Shown: positions 16,868-61,614 of the stretch, piece by piece
Numbering within the stretch: position 1 is the first letter of the stretch
Layout: every line of letters starts with the position of its first letter
NCBI GenBank assembly: GCA_022393335.1
Contig: JAJEKB010021880.1
Coordinates: 2,391,744 to 2,455,743, forward strand
Length of the DNA: 64,000 bases
Direction of reading: 5' to 3'
DNA from: Macrotrachela quadricornifera
Taxonomy: Eukaryota > Rotifera > Eurotatoria > Philodinida > Philodinidae
The notes under the pieces: generated by a model
The model's database searches: none
Told to the model about the DNA's origin: nothing
Seen by the model: only the letters and a program-made list of their open reading frames with translations
Made by a program: the position numbers and the translations under genes

Positions 16868-18872
16868 GACTGGGTACTACTTTAAAATCTAATATACAAT
16901 TCAATATTATCATCATTGTCGATGAAGAACAAGTGAAAGCATGACCTTTAACCTTTTTATACATGAAGAGAAGATACTCTTTATATATTCATTGATAAAA
17001 ATCAAGCGATATTGTAAGATAATTGAAGATAGCAAACGAACCAGAAATGTCAAACATATCAGCTTTCAATCTATTAACTTGTAGTTTATTTATTATCTAC
17101 ATTGATTGTTAGTATATTTATATTAAATTTTGATTTGATAGTTCATCTTCATCGTAGTTTATGAAATATTGATCCCGTTTTAAAAACATGATTAATTAGT
17201 ATTTTCTTCTCAATTTATCGATTATCTATTTAACTTGTTTAGCAATCGTATAAGTACATAGATTTATATAGAGAGTTGATCTCTACTGGTATATCATTTG
17301 TTTGTTCTGTAGTAGATTTATTACTTGATCTATTTTATACCTATTTTGGCGTTTGAAACTATAATTTATGATAAATGTTTGACAATATCAGATCTTATCT
17401 ATACAATCTACGCAAGAGTATATTCACTTACTCAATCATTATTGGTCTCATTAGGTATGATTGAGGGTGACTCACACCTTTACCCTCAAGATTCTTGATG
17501 AATATATCATTAACATAGTGGTATTGAGATTTCAGTACTGTATCTTATTTTCATAGACTATCTAAGTCCAGTATATAAGTGAAAATGACTTCATCTTTTT
17601 AGCGAATGTGTTGATTATAACGACGCATGTTTATTAACTATGATACACATGATACTCAAGTAAAATCTTTTTCTACGATGTCTCACAAGACCATAACAAC
17701 TTTAGATCATCGGACAAACTAGAACTAAATCTTGAATGATCTGAAGACATGTTGTGTAATCCAGATACCTGTCTATATTATATTTTAATCTTTTCGATCT
17801 CAAGATTAAAGTAAACTAAAATTATTTTTAATTCCTTTCACATTTCATAGATATTATAGGATATAAATAGACAACTTTAGTTCAGACGTAAATAGCTACT
17901 TTGTAATTCTACCTGCATTTTTGTGTCTCAATAGATTTTCCTTGTTTTGATACGAATCAATGTGAAAAAAGCTGTCGAGAAAATAAGATCAAAGTGAACA
18001 GGACATTTTGAAGACTCTAGACTAGTCTGGTTGAGGATTAGTATTAGCTTCTCAAAAATGGTCTTGTCATACTAATTAGATTGTGTCACTACTAAAAATA
18101 ATGCAGACTAGTCAGATCCTCAATAATAGTTGATCGAACGTTCGATTCCACTTATCTTCTTTTATCCTTATGATCCTCTGTTGTATTAATGAGTTTAGAA
18201 AGTATGAATAGACTAGACTTCGGAGCATTTATGGTTCAAACCCATCCAAGAACAGTTGTCAATCATTTTTTGGTCCTGGGTGAATAGTTACGAAGTACAC
18301 TCGCAAGCAAATAAAAAAAAGGAAATTTTATCACACATGTTGCAATGGTTTTTTTCTGATTTGGGATGTATATTTATGGTAAGATTCTCACTGAATATAC
18401 TCCTTATTAACTCATTTCGCAAAGTAACTTTGTTTTCTAATATGAATTGATTGTACAGAAAGAAACAAAACAAAAATGTAATGCTGATATAATGCAATTA
18501 CGTTTGTAGGTAAGCAGATGTTCTTCGCATAAAATTTTGCATCATTTTGTTTTCATAAATTTATGATAATAAAATAATCATACATCGATATATGCCATAT
18601 AAAAAACCTTAATTTTATCGTTGATGTCTTTTAGATCAGAAACACAATAAGATTTGTTTTTGCTTTCAGGCATTAAATGAAAGTTCGAAAGCCATTTTTT
18701 TATAATGGTCCTAACAGAAATTTCCAATACGCCAAATACGGTGTATAAGATAAGTTTTTCTTATTTTAAGCATAATAGAAACCATTGACATAAGTCAATA
18801 GAAATTAGTTACTACAATCATGTACAACTTTTCATGGCGCATGTTTCCAAAAAAAAAATTTTAGATCTTATC
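16868..18872. other. Intergenic, no gene seen
   Basis: AT-rich. A hairpin at about 17461-17490 pairs TTGAGGGT with ACCCTCAA. Nothing else is supported. Confidence 0.45.
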
Positions 18873-18877
18873 ATCTA

Positions 18878-19065
18878 TGTGCCGATATCTATATATCACC
18901 TCTTATTGACTTCTTTCTAACCTTTAGCTAACCTTTATCTGACCTTGCTTTCTTCTATCTCTATTGTTACTTTCTTGTGGATATATCTCTCTCGTGACCG
19001 ATGTATATATACGGTGAATATTCATGAAATAAAGTAGCTGTGACCGATACACGTTTGTTGTTACA
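18878..19065 (+). repeat. 5' LTR
   Basis: 188 bp, TGTGCCG..TTGTTACA, identical base for base to 20823-21010. Contains GATGTATATATACGG (TATA-like) and ATGAAATAAAG (polyadenylation-like). Confidence 0.9.
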
Positions 19066-19083
19066 TGGCGACCCTGGCAAAAC
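19066..19083 (+). promoter_or_regulatory. Primer binding site
   Basis: TGGCGACCCTGGC starts at the first base after the LTR. TGG pairs with the CCA end of a tRNA. The specific tRNA cannot be named without a search. Confidence 0.65.
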
Positions 19084-19227
19084 AAACTACGCACTTCTGA
19101 TCAAAAAGAAGAAATAAAATTTTGAAGCATTCTATCGACTATACATTTTGAAATTTTGATACCATTTCAAAGCTGGTCAATTAGTCAAGTTAAGAAGCGT
19201 TTATTCTTCTCAAATCAAAGACTTAAT

Positions 19228-20742
19228 ATGAATATATCCTTCGGTAAATTAAATGGTGTGTGTCTTGATTGTATTTATTTACACGCACATGTAATCAATA
19301 AATGTAAACACACAGTGTGTATGAACTGTTTATATGAAGCAATTGACAAAAAGATTGAACTTCAAAGAATGGTATTTGTATGTCCACGATGCGAAAATTT
19401 GAATGAACATCAAACTCGTGTGGAACCAACGTCGAGTCAAGAATCAAATATAGATCAAGAAGAAAACGAATTAATCAAGCAGCTACCGAAATTAGAACAA
19501 GAAGAATTAAATGAACAACAAATACAACCAATACTGGCTTCGAACAATATTCATGAAAACTATTCAATATGGCCGGTTGGAACTGAATCGTGGCTGATCC
19601 ATGAAATTAAACCTCAAAGAGAAATTTTCGCCCGGAAAGAATGTGCAAAACAATCCATAATAAATCACACAACCGAAAATATGAATGATTGGTGCTCCCA
19701 ACAAACTTCAGAAGGTGATTTATTATGGCTTAACGGAACAGAATCATGGTATGTTCATGAAATTAAACCACAACGCGATCGATTTAAAACCATACTCGCT
19801 CCGAAGACTGAAAGATCTGAAAAATTGGATGGTTCTGAAAATTTATTAGAAGCTTCAGCTCATTATTCACCAGCTGAACAATTACCCCAAACTAATTCCA
19901 ACAGCGATCCTCCAACAAAATCAATGAAAATAAGAAACCTGGAATTTATTAGTGCTGAAGAAATTATTCTTCATAATTTTGGTGAACTTCCACAATATGT
20001 ATCGAAGATGCTACAAGATCTAAACAAATCGAGTCCAAAATTACGGGTGCGACAATCACCAATTTGTTCTCGTCTCTCAACGACAAGAAAAATGTCAAAG
20101 AATCGCTCACTCATTCGTTTATTATGGCTAATTAGTCATGGCATTACTGCACTACTTACTTTTATCTTGTTAATATTAATAAAAATAGGAATCTTATATG
20201 GTTCAACACCTGTCGCAAATAACCTTCATACTTTCTATCAAAAGCCACAATCGAAACTAAATAGTTACACGATGCCATCGATTTCCATAACACAGCATCC
20301 TACGAAATTCCTGATCGACGAAAAAATAATTGAAAAAGTTCGAAACCTCGAATCTCTATGGATTTATGCTATTACGTAAGCATGACTTTTTACTTCGAAT
20401 ATTTCTTTCGGACTTTTGGCCTTCAGATTTCGTTTGGTTATCATGTTTATTTTTCTCCGTTCAATTCTTGTTCAAAAAGCAAATGCTTAACTCTGAATTA
20501 TATTTCGTATTAATCGCGTTGCTGTCTGTTTAATTTTTTCTTTTTGTTGTTTTCCTGTGTCTAGAGTATTTTGTGTTATAACTTCTCTAAATATGACTTG
20601 CTTCACATATACGGTCGATCTTTTCCTTACACATAGACTTATGGTGTTCTTCTTATTCGTTTGTTTTCATGTATTACAATATTGTTCTCATAATCTGTTT
20701 TGTTATTGTACACGGATGAAACCGAGACAATGTAGCTCATGA
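19228..20742 (+). CDS. RING-finger membrane protein inside the LTR element (probably 2 exons)
   Basis: Exon 1 runs 19228-20375. If unspliced the frame stops at 20379 (383 residues). A good donor (AC|GTAAGC) and acceptor (CTGTGTCTAG) give a 189-bp intron and exon 2 at 20565-20742 in frame, for 441 residues. A C3HC4 RING lies at residues 12-55 (C12, C15, C26, H28, C31, C34, C52, C55), expected to bind two zincs and recruit an E2, making it a candidate ubiquitin ligase. A motif GTESW-x2-HEIKPQR occurs twice (about 118-131 and 170-183). The middle is acidic, Glu/Gln-rich. A membrane segment spans about 297-324 and exon 2 adds a second (about 406-432). No retroviral domain. An upstream in-frame extension lacks an ATG. 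E3 activity and any envelope-like role are inference. Confidence 0.75.
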
Positions 20743-20822
20743 TGGAGGCTACCAGTTTCTATTCATGCCGTAAGATGGCATATGGCAGACGCTCAGGAGC
20801 GCGTCTGGACTGAGTGGGAGGG
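20740..20822 (+). other. 3' untranslated tail with two hairpins and polypurine tract
   Basis: ATGCC..GGCAT and CAGACGC..GCGCGTCTG form two short hairpins between the stop codon and the purine-rich GAGTGGGAGGG that touches the 3' LTR. The purine tract is the expected plus-strand primer. Confidence 0.5.
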
Positions 20823-21010
20823 TGTGCCGATATCTATATATCACCTCTTATTGACTTCTTTCTAACCTTTAGCTAACCTTTATCTGACCTTGCTTTCTTC
20901 TATCTCTATTGTTACTTTCTTGTGGATATATCTCTCTCGTGACCGATGTATATATACGGTGAATATTCATGAAATAAAGTAGCTGTGACCGATACACGTT
21001 TGTTGTTACA
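20823..21010 (+). repeat. 3' LTR
   Basis: Identical to the 5' LTR across 188 bp and followed by the ATCTA duplication. Confidence 0.9.
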
Positions 21011-21015
21011 ATCTA

Positions 21016-21559
21016 CTTATGCCAAGATATTGGCAAAATAAGGAAATACAAGATAGGAAAGTTTTAAAAATAATGTGTGACAATGTTATTACTGATTCTC
21101 ATCTATAATACAAGCTACAGGTCTGAAACTTTGTAGTCATGTAGTACTAACTATGTACAATAATCTATGTAAGTTTCAAAGAATTTGCTTTTACTAAACG
21201 GAAGAACGATGAATTTTAAAAATTATTTCAGAACTTCTGAGATACCCTTTATATGTATATGTCATCTACACGATATAACAGAGGAAAGAAAGAAAGAAAA
21301 GAAAAAAATATATATAGAGATAAATGCGTCACTATAACACAACTTATTATAGATTGAAGTATTTCATATTTGATGATGGAATTCATATAAACGCCATCTT
21401 TTTCTTTACACGGACGTCATAATTTTTTCTCGTTCTGTTGGTCTGTGTTGTTGTCATGACGTGAATGTTAAAATTAAACTGTGAGTACATTTTTTTGTAA
21501 AATATATAAAGTGAAACAGTTAAAAACAAAAATAAATCATCTTACTTCTTACAACAAAA
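21016..21559. other. Spacer / likely promoter of the next gene
   Basis: AT-rich with a purine-rich GAAAGAAAGAAAAG run near 21285. No gene seen. The zinc-ribbon membrane protein starts at 21560. Confidence 0.35.
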
Positions 21560-32007: not shown

Positions 32008-32991
32008 TTATCTCTTGTTCAGTATTGGAAATATAGTATAGGTTTGTTGAACAGGTTCGACGCATTTAGCATGATAGCTATTTCCGTATTTACTTTCACA
32101 GTCCGATTCTGTTAAGAGACAGAAAAAGCAAAAATTATGACCACATGTCTGGCATGTATGATGTTTACACTTTTCATCATAAGCACCTGGAGTAGAACAT
32201 TTTGGGCAACAGCGTCGATTAGGTATTTGGAAATCTTTATTATATTGGAATTTGACAAGATTATACTTGATCATTGTTTCATAGTAACAATTACCATTGG
32301 AACAAGTATATCTAGTAGAATTGCACATAGTTTCATTATTCCAATTTTCATTGCAAAAGAAGCAAAAGTCACGAGAACAGTTTAAACATCTTTGTTTTGG
32401 ATACATTGTTTCATTGATAACGAGAGTACCACATGTGCAAACTTGACAATCAATATATTTCAGAAGATTCTGAAGATCCTTATATGATTGTAATGATATA
32501 ATAAATTCACGAGTAACAAATATATCCTTTGATGCAATGACCTTGTGACATATAGGACACTCCATCTGACCATTCTTATGTTTGAAATAATTTATAAAAC
32601 ATTCTTCACATACCATACAACAACATAATTTAATGCATTGATTCTTATTACAACAGATAAGACATTGACATCTTGTCTTTTTTATCTTTTTCAATTCACC
32701 TGGAAGATCAGCATAAATAATATCAATTAAAGTTGCTATGCCGAAAAGACCTCCATTATGAAGACGAGCAAGTACAAAAATGGTTTTATCATCTGTAATT
32801 TTTGATTTTTGTTCTTTAAATTTATCTTCATGTTCCAAATCAAGTTGAGTACCATCAACAACAAAACGATACCCATTATATGGTCCAAATGCTGCAGTAG
32901 CAACTTTTTTAAAATCTTCTAAATCAAAATTTTCTTTGATCATTGTAGGTATTGATTTACCGGCAACACTTTGAAATGTAATGTTCAACAT
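32008..32991 (-). CDS. RBR-type E3 ubiquitin ligase with N-terminal ubiquitin-like domain (intronless)
   Basis: 327 residues. Residues 1-81 look like a ubiquitin fold and end ARLHNGG, recalling the LRLRGG tail of ubiquitin. RING1 is at about 108-148 (CQCLIC..CPIC), an IBR at about 182-235 (CTCG, CLNC, CFFC) and RING2 at 261-291 (CPKC, then DEKCKHHTCQTC, then CFFC). Cys275 in KCKHHTC sits where HHARI and parkin carry the catalytic Cys that receives ubiquitin from the E2. In the family, RING1 binds E2-ubiquitin, which passes to the RING2 Cys and then to substrate, in cytosol. A short Cys-rich tail follows. The ATG at 32991 follows an AT-rich leader. Single exon, complete, all key residues present. 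Substrate unknown. Confidence 0.85.
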   Translation of the reverse strand: MLNITFQSVAGKSIPTMIKENFDLEDFKKVATAAFGPYNGYRFVVDGTQLDLEHEDKFKEQKSKITDDKTIFVLARLHNGGLFGIATLIDIIYADLPGELKKIKKTRCQCLICCNKNQCIKLCCCMVCEECFINYFKHKNGQMECPICHKVIASKDIFVTREFIISLQSYKDLQNLLKYIDCQVCTCGTLVINETMYPKQRCLNCSRDFCFFCNENWNNETMCNSTRYTCSNGNCYYETMIKYNLVKFQYNKDFQIPNRRCCPKCSTPGAYDEKCKHHTCQTCGHNFCFFCLLTESDCESKYGNSYHAKCVEPVQQTYTIFPILNKR

Positions 32992-33275
32992 TGTACAATC
33001 GATTTGATCTGTTTTGATTAAAAGAGAGAGTAATTAATACCAATAAAATATAGTGAAAAATTGAATAATTCTTTTAACTATAAAATGAAAATTTGATATA
33101 CTTTTTTTTCTTATTTCACAATTTCATGAGACAAATGACGAGTTTATATTCAAGCCAAATGGAGAAAAAATTTTACGACACATAAAAAGTAAAGACAACA
33201 GTGCAAAAAAAATTATCTTATCATTTTATAATGTTGGACTGTTTCAATTCAAACAAAAAGTGACTCATAATAAAA

Positions 33276-36423: not shown

Positions 36424-39400
36424 TTATTGTTCTCGATATTTATACGTACTGAAATCAGAATCTTTATCAATTATCTGATTAAAATGTTTATTTAGGAATG
36501 CACGTGCTTCGGATATGCCAGGTAAATTTCTTGATGCATGTAAACATCTATAATTTTCATCATCGATAGCTTCTTTGTTATAACATAAACAAATCAAATC
36601 TTTACTGATACCTAATCGTCTATTGATAGCTTCATTTAATTCATTTTCAATTAATGAATCAGGCATCGTGTCAATACCAGTAATAATAACAACAAATTTT
36701 GCTAATTTATTCAAACCATATTGCTCATATTCTTTATCTAAAAAGCAAAGATAAATTATTTTTGTTCTGTATTATGAAAAGCACTATCTTAGAATAATAT
36801 GATTTCATCTCATTTGAATTTAATTCAATTAAACATCTTATAATCAAACGAATTTTTTCACTTGAAATTGATAAATGTCATCTGATTTAGAGTTATGTTA
36901 GATATTTATACTCAAAGAATTAATATTAGTTTACAAGAAATGTAGGCGCTGAAATTACATTCACATGAGAAACTTGATTTTTTTGATGGAAAAATTGCAT
37001 ATACAATATTTGTAATTGATTGCAAAAAAAATTTCTGTTAAATTTATTTTTGTAGTACTCGTTTTCATTAGCAATGCATCTAAATAGTATAATTCTCATT
37101 AAACATACTCGATTGATCTATTGGAGATTTCTCATTTACAGATTTTGATTGACTGTGTGCACTTGCATGTGATACGGGCTGTTCTAGTTTTGAAGGCAAT
37201 GTTGTTATTGATGATGATGATGATGCTTGCAATTCCTTAATTAATTTTGCAGCTGAGTTATAATCAGTACCAGCTCGTACAACAATTACATAAAATGTAC
37301 TGAGTACAGAATAATTCTGATTTAAATGTGCTACAGTTTCTACAGGATCTGTCACACCAGGATAATCAATTAAATGAACTTTATTGTTACTATTTTCATC
37401 ATCATATAATGTATACATTTGCATTTGTTGTGTACGATTATCAAGATAATCACCACGTTGTGCCGGTATATTCCATAAAGAATTCAATAAACTTGACTTA
37501 CCAGCACGATGTGCACCAATAAATGATATATAATTTGTGCTCATAGATCGTCGTAATGTACATATATAATAAATATCATGTAAAACTTTAAATGCTTTAA
37601 TTTGTGATTCCATTGTGGTACCAAATAATGTTGCTCTTTCCGATCGTGTTTTTTGGTCTGGATTAAATAAATTTTTATCTTTGATTGTTTTTTCTATCAT
37701 TTTAGAATTTGTCATATCAATAATATCAAAATCAATAGATTTCTTTTCCAATATATCATATATTTGTATTTCTAACATTCTTTCATTAGCACATTCATCT
37801 GAATTACCTCCTATACTATTCAATAAAAGCGATAGATGCTCATGATAAATAAGTCTTTCTAATAAATTATGACCAATGGTAGCTACAACAGCATAAGACA
37901 ATAATGTCGTATAACCAGTAGAAAATAGTACTCCACCAGTGAGCTCTGTTGCAAGAAAAGTTCCTACAGTACCCGTAAGTAATTGATAACTGAAGAAACT
38001 AAGTAGAGCAACATGAGACAAGGCGCATGTACCAAGTAACGCACAAGTTCCAAAAAAAAGGAATGTTTTCGGATTCTCTTTTACTCCCTGCAGAAAAGCT
38101 TTATCATAATTATACTTTGGTTCTTCTGTCAAAGCTTTATATAATTCATTTATTAAACCAGACATATCATTATATAACTTTGCATCAATTGATATTGGTT
38201 TATTCATTCTTTTCATCTCTTGACATGTATTTAAATGCTTTTGAAGTAAAGTTTTAAATATTGAAGATTTACTCTGTAGCCTATTTTCAAATAATTTTTC
38301 AAAGTAATATAAGTTATTTTTAGTATTGGATAAAACTAAATGATTATTTGAATGAACATATTCAAAAAATGATCGTAGAAATGTAGCCATTAAAAAATTC
38401 ACATCAAATACTTGGAATGCTGATATTATCTGTTGACCGTCGATACTATCATCATTATAAAGTTTTAAATTTAAATTAATTTCTCCAAAATGTGTATCCA
38501 ATTTATATTGTCGTGGACCAATTGTCAAACGTTTTTCAAATGGTACTAAATTACGACTCATTAAAACCAGTTTACTTCGGGAAACCTCCAATCCTATTAA
38601 AACAGGATCCGATGCAAAGAAATTTTCTGATGTTATTATACACATCTTTTTATGTAATGATACAAAATCTAACTGATCACCAAGAATTGTTATTTTAATA
38701 TCTGTATTAGAACAGATAGCTGTAGCTTCTCGGATATTTGGAGTAAAAGATTGAAGTTCAGTTACAAGTTGTGAATTTTTTCTTACTGATGTTGAACATC
38801 GAGGACGAAAGATTTCACATGATATCAATGATGTGATATATCTTTCCATGTAATGATCGATAATATTTTTATCCGTTATTCGTGCCGTTGATGGACCAAA
38901 TGATTCGATTAATTTTTTTGATATAGAATCATCAAATTTTTCTTCATTGCTTTCATTGATTTTCATTACATTACTCTTGTAAGTAATAATCCATTCAACA
39001 AGTTCTTCATTAGTTGAATTATTTGAAGGCAATAATGAACGTATAAATCCATATTGTCCAATCGGTCTATATTCGATAGTTGTATTTACTAAAAGCTTTT
39101 TCACTGTTGGTATCAATGAATTTAAAATTTCAACGGACGATTTAATCACTGTTTGTGGTACACCAGTTGCCAATGAGATGATTGGAAGAAGTGTATTAGC
39201 TATTTCTGAACATGGTTTAATTATTGGTTCTATTGTTGATTGAAGACGTGTACCAGTTTCAACAAGATTCAGTAAATTTGGTACAATATCATTTTCATTT
39301 ATTATTGTTAAAAAGTGTTTATTAAAATTATTTTTAATTAAACTTTTAGCAACAGTATTATTACCAATAAATGGTGAGCCAAAAGCTATACTATATATTT

Positions 39401-40214
39401 GTGGTTTGTCTTTATAACTTCGATTAGCTAAATTAAATATGGCACATAAATGTGCGACACTACCACCTAATGAATGACCAGTGAATATTAAACGTTTACT
39501 ATATTCAGAAGAAGAATTAAATTCATTTATTAATGTATCATATGGAAAGTCGGAAGCACGTTTTGCAAAACCTTTGTGAACCATGCCCGATGACCATAAT
39601 ATAGGATGTATACTTAAGTCAGTTAGAACATCATCAATATTTGTTGTACCACGAAATGCAATCCATATGGTTTGGTCGTTCACATTATTGTTGCTTATAG
39701 CTAATAGATATGGTGAAAATGCGTTAGATGCAAATTTTAATCCACATTCTGGAGCAGTTAATGTTGAAATACAATCGTAAGATGAATATTTTTCATTGAT
39801 ACGAGCAATTGGATCTGAATAATAAACAGCATCAGATAATATAGCAGCTATTTGGATATCTTCATTAGAAAAATGACATTTTTCTTTATCTGGTACTATC
39901 TTCACGGGTACATGTTTGCCAGGATATAATTCATATTTTCGATTAGCTTTACACGAAAAATAACCGTCTGTATTTAACGTGAGAATGACAAGATCTTCGT
40001 CTTCATTGTTATCATTTAATAATTCGCGTAATTTTGCGTTTGGATATTCTAATAGTATCGTGTCTGAACGATTATATTCAATATGAAATTTATTAACAAG
40101 TGATTGAAACAATATGCGACATTCATCATTATTCAACGGACTTGATGAATTAGATTGATTAAAGCCTATATTAAATATTTCGTATTGCTGCTTATAAATT
40201 ATTGATAATGTCAT
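36424..40214 (-). CDS. Class-3 lipase / membrane / GTPase fusion protein (2 exons)
   Basis: Exon 1 is 40214-37109 and exon 2 is 36737-36424. The intron (GTATGT..TTTTTAG, 371 bp) keeps frame, giving 1139 residues. Without splicing the frame ends nine codons past the donor. Residues about 120-320 are a fungal-type (class 3) lipase: IAFRGT at 185-190, the nucleophile elbow GHSLGG with Ser248, and ENDIVP with candidate Asp309. About 715-790 is long and hydrophobic, probably membrane-inserted hairpins. About 890-1130 is a GTPase: P-loop GAHRAGKS (900-907), DYPG (950-953), and in exon 2 a TGID at the G4 position (usual form NKxD), then LHASRN. The lipase would cut acyl esters; the GTPase resembles IRG/dynamin-like membrane GTPases in style. 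The order lipase, membrane, GTPase is unusual. Cellular role unknown. Confidence 0.85.
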
Positions 40215-40342
40215 ATTTGTGAGAGAGGTTCTCTTGTTAGAATGCGATATTAATAGATTGTTATAGCTATTATTGTCGGTATATATTGTGAAACACGATC
40301 TAAAAGAGAGTGTTGATGTGTTTAGGAGTAGAAATTTGGACT

Positions 40343-60279: not shown

Positions 60280-60510
60280 TATGTTCCCTCGTGTGCAAAA
60301 GAATCGGTTTCCAAACAAGAAAATCTTATAATATTTCAATTATTTATCTGAGCTGAGAAGCACATACAAACGAGTCAAATAAAAGATGCTTCCATATGAC
60401 AAGATAATGGAGGAAATAAAAATTTTGTTATACCTGTGAAGAAACCTTTTTCTTATTATTGAGTAGCTTATGATAAATACGTAACTGTCTGTGAATAAAT
60501 TTTAGATCTA

Positions 60511-61614
60511 ATGACGTCATCAGTTACTTATCAGCGTAAACGAGCATTAGTCATCGGTATTAATAAATATTCCACAAACCCATTATCTTATTGTATAAAT
60601 GATGCCAGGGATTTAAAAAAAACTCTCGAAGACATTGGATTCGACGTATCAATAGGAATTGACTGCAACCGCAAAGATTTTCTACAAGTGATTGACACAT
60701 TTGCTGAAGCAATAGTGAGTACCGATCTAACATTATTCTACTTTTCTGGTCATGGCAAACAATATGAAAACGAAAATTATTTGTTGCCATCAAATTATGA
60801 CTATGATTTTAGTACGATGGAGAGTAAATACATAATGGACAACGCCATTAATGCACAGTTTATTTTGAAGAAAATAGGTGATAAACATTGTCGCGTAACG
60901 ATATTTATATTTGATTGCTGCAGAACATTCATTCGAACTAAAGGAAGTGATATGCAGTACGGTTTATCACCTATGCGTGCACAACAAAAAACCCTAATTG
61001 CATATGCATGTGGTCCAGGTGGAGTAGCAGTTGATGAAACCCAAAACGGTAAAAATGGTTTCTTTATTGAAAATTTGTTAAAATACATTACAATACCCAA
61101 TCGTGATATTGAAGATGTATTCAGGAATGTTGCTCATGATATTGAATTACAAACTCATGGTCTTCAACTGTGCCATCGATCAAGCTCTCTCACAGAAGAA
61201 GTCTGTTTGATAAAAGATAATGTTAAAGGTTAGTGTTTGTTCTTTTTAATTTAATCTCTTATCATACGGTCTCAAAATCCAACTCTTCACTATCATTACT
61301 CACCAACATGTCATCTGAAACATAGGAATAAGCTTTTTGAAAATGGGAATCAGTTTCCATCCATTTTCGAGTTTAGCATGTCTTACCAAACTTTGTTTTT
61401 TAGAAATAATGAAAATCAGAGGATGGTACTTTTATAAGAAATATTAATTTTTCTAAAAAACAAAGAACTTAACAAATAGACTTGTCGTTCGTTCTTTTGT
61501 TTGACTTTTCTTTTAGTGCCAGAATTATCATCTATAGTTGTCCATTCAGATTTATTCAAATCGATGTTTTCTTTGTTTGTCAATCAAGAAATTTCGCTTC
61601 GAGCACTTTTATAG
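60511..61614 (+). CDS. Caspase-fold (peptidase C14-like) protein (2 exons)
   Basis: Exon 1 is 60511-61228 and exon 2 probably 61517-61614 (donor AAAG|GTTAGT, acceptor CTTTTAG, 288-bp intron), giving 271 residues. Exon 1 read alone ends two codons later. The p20 fold is clear: KRALVIGINKY strand, INDARDLKKTLEDIGFDV, the catalytic His in FYFSGHGK (His81), and IFIFDCCRTF with candidate catalytic Cys137. Further, AYACGPGGVAVDE resembles the strand before the p10 part. Such proteins (metacaspase/paracaspase/caspase-like) cleave after Asp or basic residues. No CARD, DED, TPR or WD40 is attached within the mapped exons. An AG before the ATG (ATTTTAG|ATCTA) allows a 5' non-coding exon. Exon 2 is less certain than exon 1. 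Confidence 0.8.

Follow-up and report, generated by a model that had tools for sequence, protein, structure and literature searches.

A small long terminal repeat element carrying a gene for a putative RING-membrane protein in a bdelloid rotifer looks like a genomic satellite of a larger retrovirus-like element

The window analysed here is a stretch of 64,000 nucleotides from the bdelloid rotifer Macrotrachela quadricornifera (assembly GCA_022393335.1, contig JAJEKB010021880.1, positions 2,391,744 to 2,455,743 of the forward strand). It contains, at positions 18873 to 21015, a compact element with long terminal repeats (LTRs) whose sole long open reading frame (ORF) encodes a protein with a divergent RING-like domain, two copies of a motif that we call the WP motif, a predicted membrane segment and a conserved tail. 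Its parts, together with stretches resembling a primer-binding site (PBS) and a polypurine tract (PPT) and with the repeat into which it is inserted, are as follows. Contigs of the same genome assembly are given C-numbers here and below.

18873..18877, no strand: 5′ target-site duplication ATCTA, from the sequence
18878..19065, plus strand: 5′ LTR, 188 bp, from the sequence and from LTR matches elsewhere in the genome
19066..19081, plus strand: PBS-like TGGCGACCCTGGCAAA, identical in the autonomous relative on C4901
19228..20379, plus strand: sole long ORF, 383 residues (RING, WP motifs, membrane segment, tail), from the ORF list and relatives
19261..19392, plus strand: RING (C3HC4) region, residues 12-55, with invariant ligands in a chosen alignment and weak Pfam and PDB matches
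19570..19620, plus strand: first WP motif WPVGTESWLIHEIKPQR, residues 115-131, from the sequence and relatives
19726..19776, plus strand: second WP motif WLNGTESWYVHEIKPQR, residues 167-183, from the sequence and relatives
20140..20196, plus strand: predicted membrane segment, residues 305-323, from hydrophobicity and a helix (292-319) in low-confidence models
20314..20376, plus strand: conserved C-terminal segment IDEKIIEKVRNLESLWIYAIT, from comparison with relatives
20787..20822, plus strand: 36-bp block with PPT-like GAGTGGGAGGG at its end, 94% identical to the autonomous relative
20823..21010, plus strand: 3′ LTR, 188 bp, equal to the 5′ LTR
21011..21015, no strand: 3′ target-site duplication ATCTA, from the sequence
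18786..18872, resuming at 21016-21251, no strand: dispersed repeat hosting the element (5′ part first), from genome comparison

The two LTRs are 100% identical over 188 bp each, starting with TGTGCCG and ending with GTTACA (TG..CA). The PBS-like stretch lies directly 3′ of the 5′ LTR, and the final base of the PPT-like tract abuts the 3′ LTR. A repeat this long and exact, framed by matching 5-bp duplications, cannot plausibly arise by chance. An earlier note on this DNA, made from the letters alone, had described this anatomy (LTRs, ATCTA duplication, primer-site-like and purine-tract stretches), and its description proved exact. Its further statement that gag and pol are absent and that the interior is one RING plus membrane-segment gene also holds: there is a single long ORF and no gag, pol or env match. 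When the gag, pol and env-like proteins of the candidate helper introduced below were compared by tblastn (E up to 1e-3) with loci including the window element, only two loci matched, both of them pieces of that helper. The 5′ LTR contains TATATA at 19004 and 19006 and AATAAA at 19028. Among the upstream ATGs, those at 19001 and 19024 lie within the LTR and the one at 19065 spans its border; the last opens an 11-codon frame that, as judged by eye, closes ahead of the RING ORF. A candidate hairpin ahead of the PPT folds no better than shuffled sequences do (z -0.62, -0.38 and -1.08) and is given no weight here.

In the encoded protein, a divergent RING is followed by WPxGTESWxxHEIKPQR motifs, then by a predicted membrane segment and finally by the conserved tail. 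All eight C3HC4 ligands are present at the N-terminus in the spacing C-x2-C-x10-C-x-H-x2-C-x2-C-x17-C-x2-C, and they are invariant in an aligned set of eight chosen RING pieces (the window ORF and seven others). Hydrophobicity peaks at residues 305-323, with a Kyte-Doolittle value of 2.54. Insertion of the protein in a membrane is probable, and would place the RING and the motif on the same side of it. A PDB search with a whole-family profile returned only histamine receptors, which at E values of 0.3 and above we regard as chance matches.

The insertion in the window is real and young. On C4565, a homologous region that matches the window at 94-96% identity on both sides of the element has no insertion. 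Some 330 bp of the dispersed repeat surrounding the insertion site are missing from it as well, and taken alone it could therefore reflect a deletion. When the two flanks are joined, however, two paralogous copies of that repeat (L051 and L053, 73-79% identical) align with them uninterrupted, and the junction reads ATCTA in two of three paralogous alignments and ATCTG in the third. The identical LTRs and the flawless duplication indicate that the insertion is recent. The earlier note had held that a conserved orthologue of the RING gene at this locus, without LTRs, in related species would speak against its reading; at the corresponding site of C4565, no RING gene is present. These observations bear on the idea that the window copy has become a gene of the host, lying between leftover LTRs. 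The intact ORF is in keeping with such domestication, but the recent date of the insertion, the homologous region without it and a second intact copy elsewhere (on C4568) make it highly improbable.

The window element belongs to a family and is no isolated capture. A search of 450 Mb of the genome with the LTR, in which all counts are lower bounds, gave at least 29 matches. Paired matches are the two of the window, two around a complete RING copy on C4568 and two around an autonomous element on C4901; single matches follow a RING interior on C560 and on C561 and start a relic on each of C4635 and C4463. The C4568 copy has its own duplication, GATAG, mutually identical LTRs and an ORF 96% identical to that of the window. 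The third copy is truncated by the contig start, and its 3′ flank is unlike that of C4568; C560 and C561 differ at one position in 983 bp and are thus probably two versions of one site. Both relics contain stops and have the same 5′ flank, and over the longest stretch that aligns, element included, their regions are about 88% alike. The insertion that they share is therefore older than the divergence of the two regions, and the RING element is an old resident. The earlier note had named several LTR-RING-LTR copies at different sites as support for its reading, and more than one such copy is present; the opposing result that it had named, an LTR found elsewhere only with unrelated interiors, did not appear. 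With the RING protein as query, the genome gave 17 matches, seven of which are the window, the copies and the relics and ten of which are weaker.

Fourteen other LTR stretches were examined, and none of them gave a RING, gag, pol or env-like match; with these, 24 of the 29 LTR matches are covered. The LTR ends were compared in 11 of these 14 stretches, 8 of which have an exact 5-bp duplication and 3 do not, and most of them look like solo LTRs. Two pairs of solitary LTRs (L014/L017 and L024/L027) have similar flanks and are probably insertions common to homologous regions.

The autonomous element on C4901 is the likely helper of the RING element, judging from its ends. The earlier note had counted as support an autonomous relative sharing the LTR, the primer site and the purine tract; the C4901 element shares the LTR, the first bases after it and the purine tract. 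It is 7.9 kb long, has a gag-pol-env-like organization, identical 203-bp LTRs and the duplication GTACT, and encodes a Gag domain (PF03732) and a polymerase polyprotein with RVT_1, RNase H and rve. Its LTR and the LTR of the RING copy on C4568 differ at 3 positions (99% identical); compared with the LTR of the window element it is 94% identical, gaps left out. The helper and the window element have the same 16 bp after the LTR and a 36-bp PPT block that is 94% identical; beyond that block, blastn found no further interior similarity. Near the end of the integrase, GPC (QGPCKI) stands, as read by eye, in place of GPY/F, and gag contains a single Zn knuckle, CYTCGMKGHIRKNC (CX2CX4HX4C), with PF00098 just under its cut-off. 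A third ORF of 590 residues has a C-terminal hydrophobic stretch. This ORF has no Pfam match at E 0.01 and, by eye, no RXXR ahead of a putative fusion peptide; nor did Pfam detect a dUTPase in the element at E 0.01. With ends that match and with the genes that the small element lacks, this larger retrovirus-like element could provide for its copying, which makes the small element look like a genomic satellite.

Separately, the search with the helper gag showed Gag matches in divergent, head-to-head pairs about 0.8-7 kb apart at seven places (C1771:9808-13087, C3900:266946-269902, C3456:26828-33486, C4305:10950-16009, C2260:1577-9955, C3470:84937-93189 and C4063:294368-296576).

The LTRs and the cargo of the RING elements appear to have had different histories. 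Between the window and C4568 copies, 28 of 350 positions differ in the LTR and leader, as against 27 of 1594 in the ORF and 3′ untranslated region (UTR) (Fisher p 1.8e-8, the leader having been pooled with the LTR only after the counts had been seen); when the LTR by itself is set against the entire interior, p is 4.7e-4. The 3′ UTR, on which little constraint is expected, differs as little (6/442) as the ORF (21/1152), so that unequal constraint is not a likely cause of the contrast. Recombination between LTR lineages during reverse transcription would be the simplest explanation of such a mosaic, and differing histories of LTR and interior are what would be expected if the cargo had recombined between lineages.

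Two database searches gave 18 relatives of the protein (P0001 to P0018), and with the window protein 19 were examined; the named relatives come from Rotaria, which fits the earlier note's comparison with bdelloid elements. The motif G-x-E-S-W-x-x-H-E-I-K-x-x-R, variants allowed, occurs in all 19, partly by construction as it was used in the query, whereas a hydrophobic stretch of at least 1.6 is found in 14. The tail R-x-L-E-S-L-x-I-Y (with variants) is present in 13, in 12 of which it lies one residue before the end. A regular RING pattern is seen in 6 of the 19; by eye, the ligands are lost in P0007 and in a relic on C4424. Four relatives that are 32-53% identical to the window protein (P0001-P0004, known as database proteins alone) have the RING ligands, the motif, the hydrophobic segment and the C-terminus in one open frame. 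Their identity to it is 49-79% in the RING, 67-83% in the motif and 48-71% in the tail, as compared with 19-31% in the long linker.

Other relatives combine the parts differently. A RING with a coiled coil, but without the membrane part, is encoded on C351/C352 and in P0019-P0021, and a RING with the motif and coiled-coil-like sequence on C4424 (where the ligands are lost) and in P0022. Whether cellular genes or relics of different elements, these relatives lack the membrane part, and the C351/C352 ORFs might be the cellular source. Scans of viral contigs with the RING protein, alignment A1 and the LTR pattern gave no relatives. As a separate observation, imperfect palindromes of about 240-610 bp, perhaps fold-back repeats, lie near distant RING and Gag-motif relatives (L036, L037, L039, L040, L041, L044 and L045).

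The same motif has been joined to Gag. A Gag domain above the cut-off is present in P0012, P0013 and P0015, all gene models of Rotaria magnacalcarata (P0013 and P0015 being near-identical sequences, both marked partial), and one below the threshold in P0018. The tail is present in P0013, P0015 and P0018, but P0012 lacks it. The Gag of P0012 is 64% identical over 172 residues to that of the helper, which indicates that the motif has been joined to helper-type Gag. In the genome of the window itself, Gag-like frames followed by the motif occur on C4397, C2367 (frame-shifted) and C4716. The first two lie between LTR-like direct repeats (192 bp, 93% identical, on C4397; 146 bp, 97%, on C2367). As read by eye, the C4397 element has GTTTC on both sides provided that the repeat ends in TAATA, and the C2367 element has GATTC and GGTTC.

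Another explanation is that the membrane RING or the Gag fusion curbs the helper, to the profit of host or satellite. Truncated Gag proteins act as restraints in other elements, such as p22 of Ty1 and those of endogenous Jaagsiekte sheep retrovirus (enJSRV). The motif behind helper-type Gag in Rotaria gene models would suit such a role, as would the single close helper gag found beside several RING copies and many solitary LTRs. However, low copy number has other causes, and self-limiting elements would, as argued in the Discussion of Rodriguez et al. (2017, PMC5408684), be out-competed. We consider this explanation improbable.

The account that we favour, with somewhat better than even confidence, is that the window element is a non-autonomous LTR retrotransposon that is mobilized in trans by a TelKA-like helper and keeps a membrane-anchored RING protein for its own benefit. 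This account builds on the insertion anatomy, the several copies, the candidate helper with its matching cis sequences, and the modular protein family with its Gag-adjoining motif. The RING element would be transcribed from its own LTR, and, since cis sequences are shared, its transcript would be packaged in helper particles and copied by helper enzymes, as is general for LTR elements. The position of the motif behind Gag in other proteins suggests that the RING protein may act at the membrane where helper particles assemble, the WP motif and the tail guiding it to the place of assembly or to the helper Gag. There, the RING would ubiquitinate a local target, either a host restriction factor or the Gag or Env of the helper itself, and ubiquitination of one of these is the most likely activity that we can propose. 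The earlier note had likewise suggested that the RING protein may help the element to spread, for example through degradation of a host restriction factor.

Several observations weigh against this account, the main weakness being the evidence of selection. Among copies of the same genome, purifying selection goes in the expected direction but is nowhere significant: the window and C4568 ORFs differ by 21 changes, of which 6 are synonymous and 15 are not (ratio 0.66, p 0.42), and the ratio is 0.62 (p 0.11) against L026 and 0.49 (p 0.07) against L015, in tests in which relics also bear changes acquired after their death. The search of the assembly with the helper gag gave a single close copy, the match that scores next best being 42% identical, and a pattern search for a tRNA gene with an acceptor stem perfectly complementary to the PBS-like stretch gave 0 matches. 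Pfam matches to the RING are weak and under the curated cut-offs (best E 0.0054), and PDB matches are weak too (best E 0.047, TRIM32). Helix 292-319 is predicted in both structure models, whose mean predicted local distance difference test scores (pLDDT) of 37.6 and 38.9 are poor. Stops or a frame shift interrupt the Gag-motif frames on C4397, C2367 and C4716, which match only residues 1-206 of P0018, without the tail. Finally, the RING-coiled-coil ORFs on C351/C352 have no LTR-like repeats within about 1.5 kb.

Some of these points would suit a host RING gene that was captured between LTRs and rides along without effect, namely the lack of significant purifying selection, the RING-coiled-coil ORFs of the same genome without nearby LTR-like repeats, and the relics with stops. 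A purely passive capture is less likely because distant relatives keep the layout and the motif sits behind Gag elsewhere. Retention of the whole layout in one open frame by P0001-P0004 is unlike a passenger, an argument that is weakened somewhat as database proteins are open frames by selection. On balance, we think passive carriage unlikely, though well worth keeping in view. A wider form of trans-mobilization with an active RING protein would be a helper-satellite system of bdelloids, in which small LTR elements share the WP module (often with the membrane segment and the tail), joined to RING, Gag or other N-termini. They would be copied in helper particles and might also pass from one animal to another in them, with the RING protein as a membrane ubiquitin ligase that shapes this traffic. 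We offer this generalization as a speculation that is more probably wrong than right.

Elsewhere in the window, an ORF at 37080-40301 (minus strand) encodes a class 3 lipase domain and, some 580 residues further on, a GTPase domain, which is an unusual pairing. Another at 32008-33033 (minus strand) has RING and IBR-like cysteine clusters that appear parkin-like by eye (IBR matches under the cut-off), and a third at 60499-61233 (plus strand) has a Caspase domain (PF00656).

Non-autonomous LTR elements are usually viewed as shells that require only cis signals. Maize Bs1, TRIM and LARD elements have LTRs, a PBS and a PPT without pol, and the pieces that they capture are usually host fragments. 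In contrast, one protein layout recurs in distant relatives of the window element. Membrane-bound RING ligases are known from viruses, in K3 and K5 of Kaposi's sarcoma-associated herpesvirus (KSHV), which are of the RING-CH type and have two membrane segments. The combination of a RING with a membrane segment makes these proteins a possible working analogy. Among the papers that searches of the open PMC library brought up, none describes, in its title or the opening of its abstract, an LTR element whose sole gene is a RING ORF.

The closest comparison is with TelKA, a clade of bdelloid LTR retrotransposons, and here we draw on the abstract, Results, Discussion and figure legends of the paper describing it (PMC5408684). 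The elements described here share short TG..CA LTRs with TelKA, and the C4901 helper resembles TelKA in its one gag Zn knuckle, C-x2-C-x4-H-x4-C, and in the GPC near the integrase end; its 590-residue third ORF with a C-terminal hydrophobic stretch may correspond to the TelKA env-like protein. GPC and the single Zn knuckle fit the clade as described, although a gag Zn knuckle CX2CX4HX4C occurs in nearly all bdelloid families and is hence non-specific for TelKA. The TelKA env-like fusion protein is about 600 residues long, with RXXR, a fusion peptide, a coiled coil and a membrane anchor, and a dUTPase domain is described in all Juno, Vesta and TelKA families. TelKA2n, a non-autonomous relative, is like the window element in retaining an extra ORF; unlike it, the window element contains no gag, pol or env piece that we could find, and encodes a RING protein. 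Those parts of the paper name no RING ORF. Bdelloid ORF3 types (GDSL esterase, DEDDy exonuclease, TM and CC, in Vesta, Juno and Athena) are, as here, extra ORFs common to different retroelement types. Compared by description, however, ORF3 in LTR elements sits behind gag-pol, whereas the window ORF stands alone. The shared module also differs from the ORF3 types in being the motif, often with the membrane segment and the tail, joined to a RING, Gag or another N-terminus.

If the account that we favour is true, the window element, with its likely helper in the same genome, would parallel in an animal a satellite virus that has its own accessory gene. The motif, as it is joined to Gag in other proteins, provides a concrete lead on the interactions of retroelements at the membrane. 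The role of extra ORFs in bdelloid retroelements thereby becomes directly testable.
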